A DNA stretch of 9,886 nucleotides. Origin: Elusimicrobiota bacterium. Lineage in GTDB: Bacteria > CG03 > SLGR01 > PWQF01. The position numbers were made by a program, and so were the translations under genes. Positions 4,743-5,747 of this stretch are shown piece by piece. Every line of letters begins with the position of its first letter. Position 1 is the stretch's first letter. Below the pieces are notes generated by a model. The model worked only from the letters and a program-made list of their open reading frames with translations. It did not search any database and was not told where the DNA came from. Location: contig PWOI01000039.1 of NCBI GenBank assembly GCA_003557485.1, positions 1 to 9,886 on the forward strand. Direction: 5' to 3'.

Positions 4743-5225
4743 TTATTCCATCCCTGCAAACTTTTCAAACAGGTCCACGCACCTTGAAGAATAACCCCAT
4801 TCGTTATCATACCAGGAAATAATTTTTACCATATTTCCGTTAAGGACACTTGTCATTTTCGCATCAAAAATGCTTGAAGCGGGATGATGGATAATATCGG
4901 AAGAAACTATGGGGTCTTCCGTATATTCGAGTACTCCTTTAAGTTCACCTTCGGCTGCTTTCTTAACCGCTGCGTTTATTTCTTCCGCAGTAGCTTCTTT
5001 TTCAAGCTCGGCGACGAAATCAACAACCGATCCGTCAGCTACCGGAACTCTCATTGCTATACCATCAAGTTTTCCGTTAAGTTCGGGAATAACTTTTCCG
5101 ACAGCTTTGGCAGCACCGGTAGTAGTAGGTATTATGTTAACCGCAGCCCCGCGCGCCCTCCTCATATCTGAATGAGGCGCATCCAGAATGTTCTGGTCAT
5201 TTGTATAGGCATGTACGGTAGTCAT
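4743..5225 (-). CDS. gap: Glyceraldehyde-3-phosphate dehydrogenase, C-terminal half (gene split by in-frame TGA)
   Basis: C-terminal 160 residues of type I GAPDH, read from the ATG that is residue 175 of the whole protein. It is in the same frame as the N-terminal half. It starts at the conserved [10 protein letters not shown] (residues 176-185 of the whole), which contains the catalytic base His179. It continues through [45 protein letters not shown] and [14 protein letters not shown], all family hallmarks, to a normal C-terminus with TAA. AGGA lies 3 nt before this ATG, and the interrupting TGA ends 15 nt upstream, so re-initiation giving a separate fragment is possible. More likely this is simply the second part of a single 334-residue gap gene spanning 4743-5747, with the TGA either a mutation, an assembly error or a read-through site. 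Confidence 0.9.
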
Positions 5226-5240
5226 AAGTCCTTTTACTAT

Positions 5241-5243
5241 TCA
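5241..5243 (-). other. In-frame TGA at gap codon 169 in place of a conserved Gly
   Basis: The frame reads [19 protein letters not shown]; homologues have Gly here (for example FGII or FGIV). One base change, GGA to TGA, explains it, with no shift in frame. Both halves remain well conserved. Confidence 0.9.
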
Positions 5244-5747
5244 GAAATTTTCGTGCAGTACTTTTGCAACAGGAGCAAAACAGTTAGTAGTACAGGATGC
5301 ATTTGAAATTATTTTATGTTCGGGCTTTATTGTCTCATCATTTACACCCAGAACTACTGTCGCATCTATTTCATCTTTTGCCGGAACTGACAATAATACT
5401 TTTTTGGCGCCGGCCTTTATGTGCCCTTCTATCTGCTCCTTTTTTCTGAAAACACCGGTAGACTCCAAAACATAATCTGTGTCAAGTTCACCCCAGGGAA
5501 GCTCTTCAGGGTTTTTTATACCGAGCACCTTGATTTCTTTTCCCATGACTTTCAGGGTATCACCAGAAACCTCTACTTCACCATGAAATCTTCCATGTAC
5601 AGAATCATATTTTAAAAGAAGCGCCAGGGTTTCAGGGGATGCAAGGTCGTTTATGGCAGTTACTTCAAAACCGCCCCTTTCCATCATTATCCTGAAAACC
5701 TGTCTTCCTATCCTTCCAAAACCGTTAATTCCTACTTTAATCGCCAT
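5241..5747 (-). CDS. gap: Glyceraldehyde-3-phosphate dehydrogenase, N-terminal half (ends at in-frame TGA)
   Basis: First 168 residues of type I GAPDH, which oxidises glyceraldehyde 3-phosphate to 1,3-bisphosphoglycerate with NAD+. The NAD-binding Rossmann motif [10 protein letters not shown] (6-15) is intact, as are AINDL (31-35), ESTGVF (95-100) and the active-site [10 protein letters not shown] with catalytic Cys152. Reading stops at TGA (codon 169), and the same frame resumes at once with the C-terminal half. On its own this half has the coenzyme domain and Cys152 but lacks His179 and most of the catalytic domain, so it should be inactive alone. The start is well supported by AAGGAG (5756-5761) 8 nt before ATG. 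The gene lies 33 nt after the lipoprotein gene and 2 nt before pgk, a classic gap-pgk pair. Confidence 0.93.

Follow-up and report, generated by a model that had tools for sequence, protein, structure and literature searches.

The gap gene of this Elusimicrobiota draft genome, which encodes a type I glyceraldehyde-3-phosphate dehydrogenase (GAPDH), is interrupted in the assembled sequence by a single in-frame TGA. We propose that this stop is probably either an erroneous base in the draft consensus or a strain variant that is not fixed. Such an origin, rather than a fixed mutation, is the most likely one because the stop is a private one-base change in a spotless, single-copy core gene, and because other isolated stops occur in the same draft.

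An in-frame TGA in an otherwise intact gap gene

The window, meaning the whole stretch of 9,886 nucleotides that we analysed, is the entire contig C85 of a fragmented draft genome (2.07 Mb in 212 contigs, 86.6% complete). The gap locus and its neighbours, with G001 standing for a genome of the same genus, are as follows.

3550-4740, minus strand: pgk, phosphoglycerate kinase (PF00162, 486 bits); intact, follows gap directly in the same orientation, colinear in G001
4743-5747, minus strand: gap, type I GAPDH; 334 codons with the stop read through (TIGR01534, PF00044, PF02800, same-genus orthologue)
5241-5243, minus strand: in-frame TGA, codon 169 of gap; Gly in 106/109 homologues, GGA in G001
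5241-5747, minus strand: first gap piece, 168 aa under standard translation; NAD domain and Cys152
4743-5225, minus strand: possible second gap piece, 160 aa under standard translation, from the ATG at codon 175; contains His179
5781-6533, minus strand: conserved 250-aa protein without family assignment; intact, located upstream of gap, colinear in G001

A sequence-only reading of the window had described a 334-codon type I GAPDH frame broken by TGA at codon 169, and the family models bear out both the identification and its coordinates. With the TGA (TCA on the plus strand) taken as a residue, the frame scores 457 bits over its full length against the NCBIfam GAPDH-I model TIGR01534, whose cut-off is 367, and it matches both Pfam domains, Gp_dh_N and Gp_dh_C. 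The catalytic Cys is residue 152 (ASCTTN) and the catalytic His is residue 179 (TTVHAYT), so that the stop, as had been pointed out, leaves them on different pieces. A type I GAPDH should have an uninterrupted frame, and here the assembled sequence breaks it with the TGA at codon 169, so what the assembly contains is an interrupted gap gene. Since homology runs on through the stop in the same frame, the match cannot be put down to chance. No second gap gene was found in the draft at its 86.6% completeness, and since this is the draft's sole gap gene, its true loss would cost the organism glycolysis.

Other products of the window were characterized in passing. The protein encoded upstream of gap at 5781-6533 has a lipoprotein-like N terminus (LLSGCP), matches no Pfam or NCBIfam family, and adjoins gap in G001 as well. 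At 9182-9886 on the minus strand lies an aminotransferase class IV-like domain (PRK07546) truncated by the contig edge, and the first residues of its product match the C-terminal end of aminodeoxychorismate synthase component I, which suggests a PabB-PabC fusion.

Among the genomes compared, only this assembly has the stop, and the gene is not decaying

Comparison with relatives confirmed the expectation that homologues carry glycine at this position and that the stop lies one base from GGA. Among 109 homologous genes, drawn from public genomes and from relatives, 106 encode Gly at codon 169. In G001 the gap gene is uninterrupted, shares 93.7% amino acid identity with that of the window and has GGA at the aligned codon, a one-base difference from TGA; the G001 contig (C204) is colinear with window positions 2593 to 6689 at 79% DNA identity. 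Judged from these alignments, the gap stop is private to this assembly among the genomes compared. Relatives in a viral collection supplied 16 more distant gap matches, the full-length ones at most 54% identical, and these contributed nothing beyond the homologue codon tally.

Apart from this codon the gene appears pristine. Across the 83 columns conserved in at least 95% of the 109 homologues, the stop is the sole departure. Measured against G001, dN/dS is 0.026/1.09 for the segment that precedes the stop and 0.046/1.11 for the one that follows, about 0.03 overall, and neither side is higher than pgk (0.066/1.16). Pseudogene decay was considered on these two measures, and no sign of it appeared on either side of the stop.

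UGA works as an ordinary stop in this genome

The genome encodes three RF-1-domain proteins, including one on contig C145 with an SPF motif, which we take to be RF2, and one on contig C166 with a PET motif, which we take to be RF1. The prfB gene on C145 is intact and has a classical +1 programmed frameshift site, AGGGGG TAT CTT TGA (L127 880-900, plus strand), after which the +1 frame leads into RF2. Only in an organism whose RF2 terminates at UGA would one expect a site of this kind. An Rfam model identified 40 tRNA genes, and ARAGORN, covering nearly all tRNA genes of a draft that is 86.6% complete, found none with anticodon UCA. The three tRNA-Gly genes are all ordinary (TCC, GCC, CCC), as is the anticodon stem of tRNA-Trp, which forms 5 bp by eye. 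A tRNA-Sec was not found, the sole match above the cut-off of the tRNA-Sec model being tRNA-Leu(UAA).

Stop usage points in the same direction. TGA terminates 307 of 803 complete long open frames (about 38%) in 1.18 Mb of sampled stretches, and none of 18 ABC-transporter matches contains an internal stop. Within the window, the FxsA and DJ-1/PfpI genes are the two previously noticed to end naturally at TGA. We conclude that UGA is a genuine stop that functions normally in this organism. The same combination, RF2 present and tRNA-UCA lacking, was taken as evidence of UGA termination by the authors of an extensive screen for alternative genetic codes (PMC8629427).

Other core genes carry isolated stops of all three types

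We surveyed 1.18 Mb of the draft, in sampled stretches, for coding sequence that runs through a stop without change of frame, and checked candidates with family models. Beyond gap, this yielded four family-verified premature stops and two probable ones, comprising all three stop types and several core genes.

L187 (G000:C94) 6221-6223, plus strand: lpxD, in-frame TGA; NCBIfam match 15-351, stop at 202; verified
L207 (G000:C170) 5237-5239, plus strand: NDP-sugar epimerase, in-frame TGA; match 27-329, stop at 192; verified
G000:C107 5571-5834 (L194), minus strand: HU-type DNA-binding protein, one of two HU genes, in-frame TAA; verified
L272 (G000:C99) 3301-5262, minus strand: methyltransferase domain of a glycosyltransferase-methyltransferase protein, in-frame TAG; match 410-539, stop at 501; verified
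L282 (G000:C106) 3029-6031, minus strand: kelch-repeat protein, TGA; probable, by eye
L266 (G000:C92) 6362-7000, minus strand: PQQ-like repeat protein, TAA; probable, by eye; no Pfam match

Further in-frame TGA codons, for which a search had been proposed, thus exist, verified in lpxD and the epimerase and probable in the kelch-repeat gene, and TAA and TAG stops occur as well. The residues replaced are not all Gly: the epimerase stop sits at an Arg conserved in all relatives compared, and the aligned lpxD position is GAA (Glu) in G001, within a variable stretch. Most other survey candidates were normal gene borders, for example adjacent genes sharing one frame. A TAA in L281 is likely such a border, being located after the end of a Thi4 match, and a TAA in L279 is a candidate outside the verified and probable counts.

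If 3.5-4% of random substitutions are taken to create a nonsense codon, five to seven premature stops correspond to a rate of about 1-1.7 substitutions per 10,000 bases; we assume a single-base origin for the HU and methyltransferase stops. TGA makes up three of the five verified stops including that of gap, where about 24% would be expected; the excess is mild and not significant (P ~0.09). In a 324-kb sample of G002, a related genome, inspection by eye revealed no clear premature stop; the control is weak, in that zero would be expected 15-25% of the time at this draft's rate. The mixture of TGA, TAA and TAG in core genes fits random substitution, not recoding, programmed read-through or a split enzyme.

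Weighing explanations of the gap TGA

The sequence-only reading had favored an error or a recent mutation over recoding, and the GGA of the colinear G001 locus, together with the isolated stops of all three types, upholds that ranking. There is next to no chance that UGA has been reassigned to Gly genome-wide (table 25). Gly is indeed the residue expected at gap codon 169, but reassignment is already refuted by the RF2, tRNA and stop-usage evidence: prfB is present with its UGA-dependent frameshift site, no tRNA-UCA was found in the draft, TGA ends 307 of the 803 complete sampled frames with few TGA codons in frame, the 18 ABC-transporter matches are free of internal stops, and the epimerase TGA replaces a conserved Arg. 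Many in-frame TGA codons combined with a missing prfB had been named as the pattern that would favor recoding, and the genome shows few of the former and an intact copy of the latter. Local read-through, by near-cognate decoding or a suppressor tRNA that yields enough full-length GAPDH, is very unlikely. The frame after the stop remains open and conserved, and the next base is A, a leaky context for TGA in some bacteria. However, G001 has GGA, hence no read-through site is conserved; neither tRNA-UCA nor tRNA-Sec was found in the draft, which leaves selenocysteine insertion rejected; the anticodon stem of tRNA-Trp is ordinary; and TAA and TAG premature stops are present too. The RNA 3' of the stop folds only slightly better than shuffled sequences (z -1.5), with nothing unusual in the way of a recoding structure. 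Less probable still is a broader version in which the TGA is real and fixed, low-level UGA read-through sustains GAPDH, and in-frame TGA codons are tolerated in core genes such as gap, lpxD and the epimerase, in keeping with the slight TGA excess among the premature stops. A two-piece GAPDH, terminated at the TGA and re-initiated at the ATG of codon 175, is highly improbable. The ATG with AGGA 3 nt upstream is present as had been described, but the option built on it found no backing: the ATG and its purine run are the coding sequence of a conserved Val-Lys-Gly-Leu-Met, the run reads AGGG in the unbroken G001 gene, and the break separates Cys152 from His179 within the catalytic domain rather than following a domain border. 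No observation points to a functional second start in gap.

It seems unlikely, without being far-fetched, that the strain has truly fixed a nonsense mutation of very recent origin, which would disable gap while glycolysis is bypassed or another GAPDH is encoded in the missing 13% of the genome. A one-base change in an otherwise undecayed gene is what a very young mutation would look like, and the draft is incomplete. Against this, the draft holds no other gap, and similar stops occur in other core genes (lpxD and one of the two HU genes), all of which are unlikely to be fixed in a living strain. Of the three genes suggested for checking, prfB is present, and tRNA-UCA and a second gap were not found in the draft. 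A consensus error or unfixed variant would account for these observations. Random substitutions at about 1e-4 per base in the draft would produce isolated stops of mixed type in core genes, and the gap stop, a single-base departure from GGA to TGA in an otherwise pristine gene, would be one of them. In the living population, codon 169 of gap most likely specifies Gly, and the product would be an ordinary full-length GAPDH that acts just before the pgk product in glycolysis.

Comparison with known systems

The locus resembles the UGA-to-Gly code of Absconditabacteria and Gracilibacteria (table 25; PMC8629427) in having TGA where Gly is expected. It differs from that code in that the genome encodes RF2, complete with frameshift site, no tRNA-UCA was found, TGA is a common stop, and the other in-frame stops are TAA, TAG or at Arg. 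When a draft shows one in-frame TGA in place of a conserved Gly, this is not evidence of recoding if RF2 with its frameshift site is present, the search for tRNA-UCA finds none and isolated interruptions by TAA and TAG occur alongside. As a type I (GapA) GAPDH (TIGR01534), the gene has the full-length match above the cut-off, the catalytic Cys and His, and the adjoining pgk, and differs as assembled by its one in-frame TGA. Isolated premature stops occur in draft or metagenome assemblies, and with no evident difference from these, the stops of this genome appear to be single-base, lineage-private interruptions of otherwise intact core genes, several per genome.
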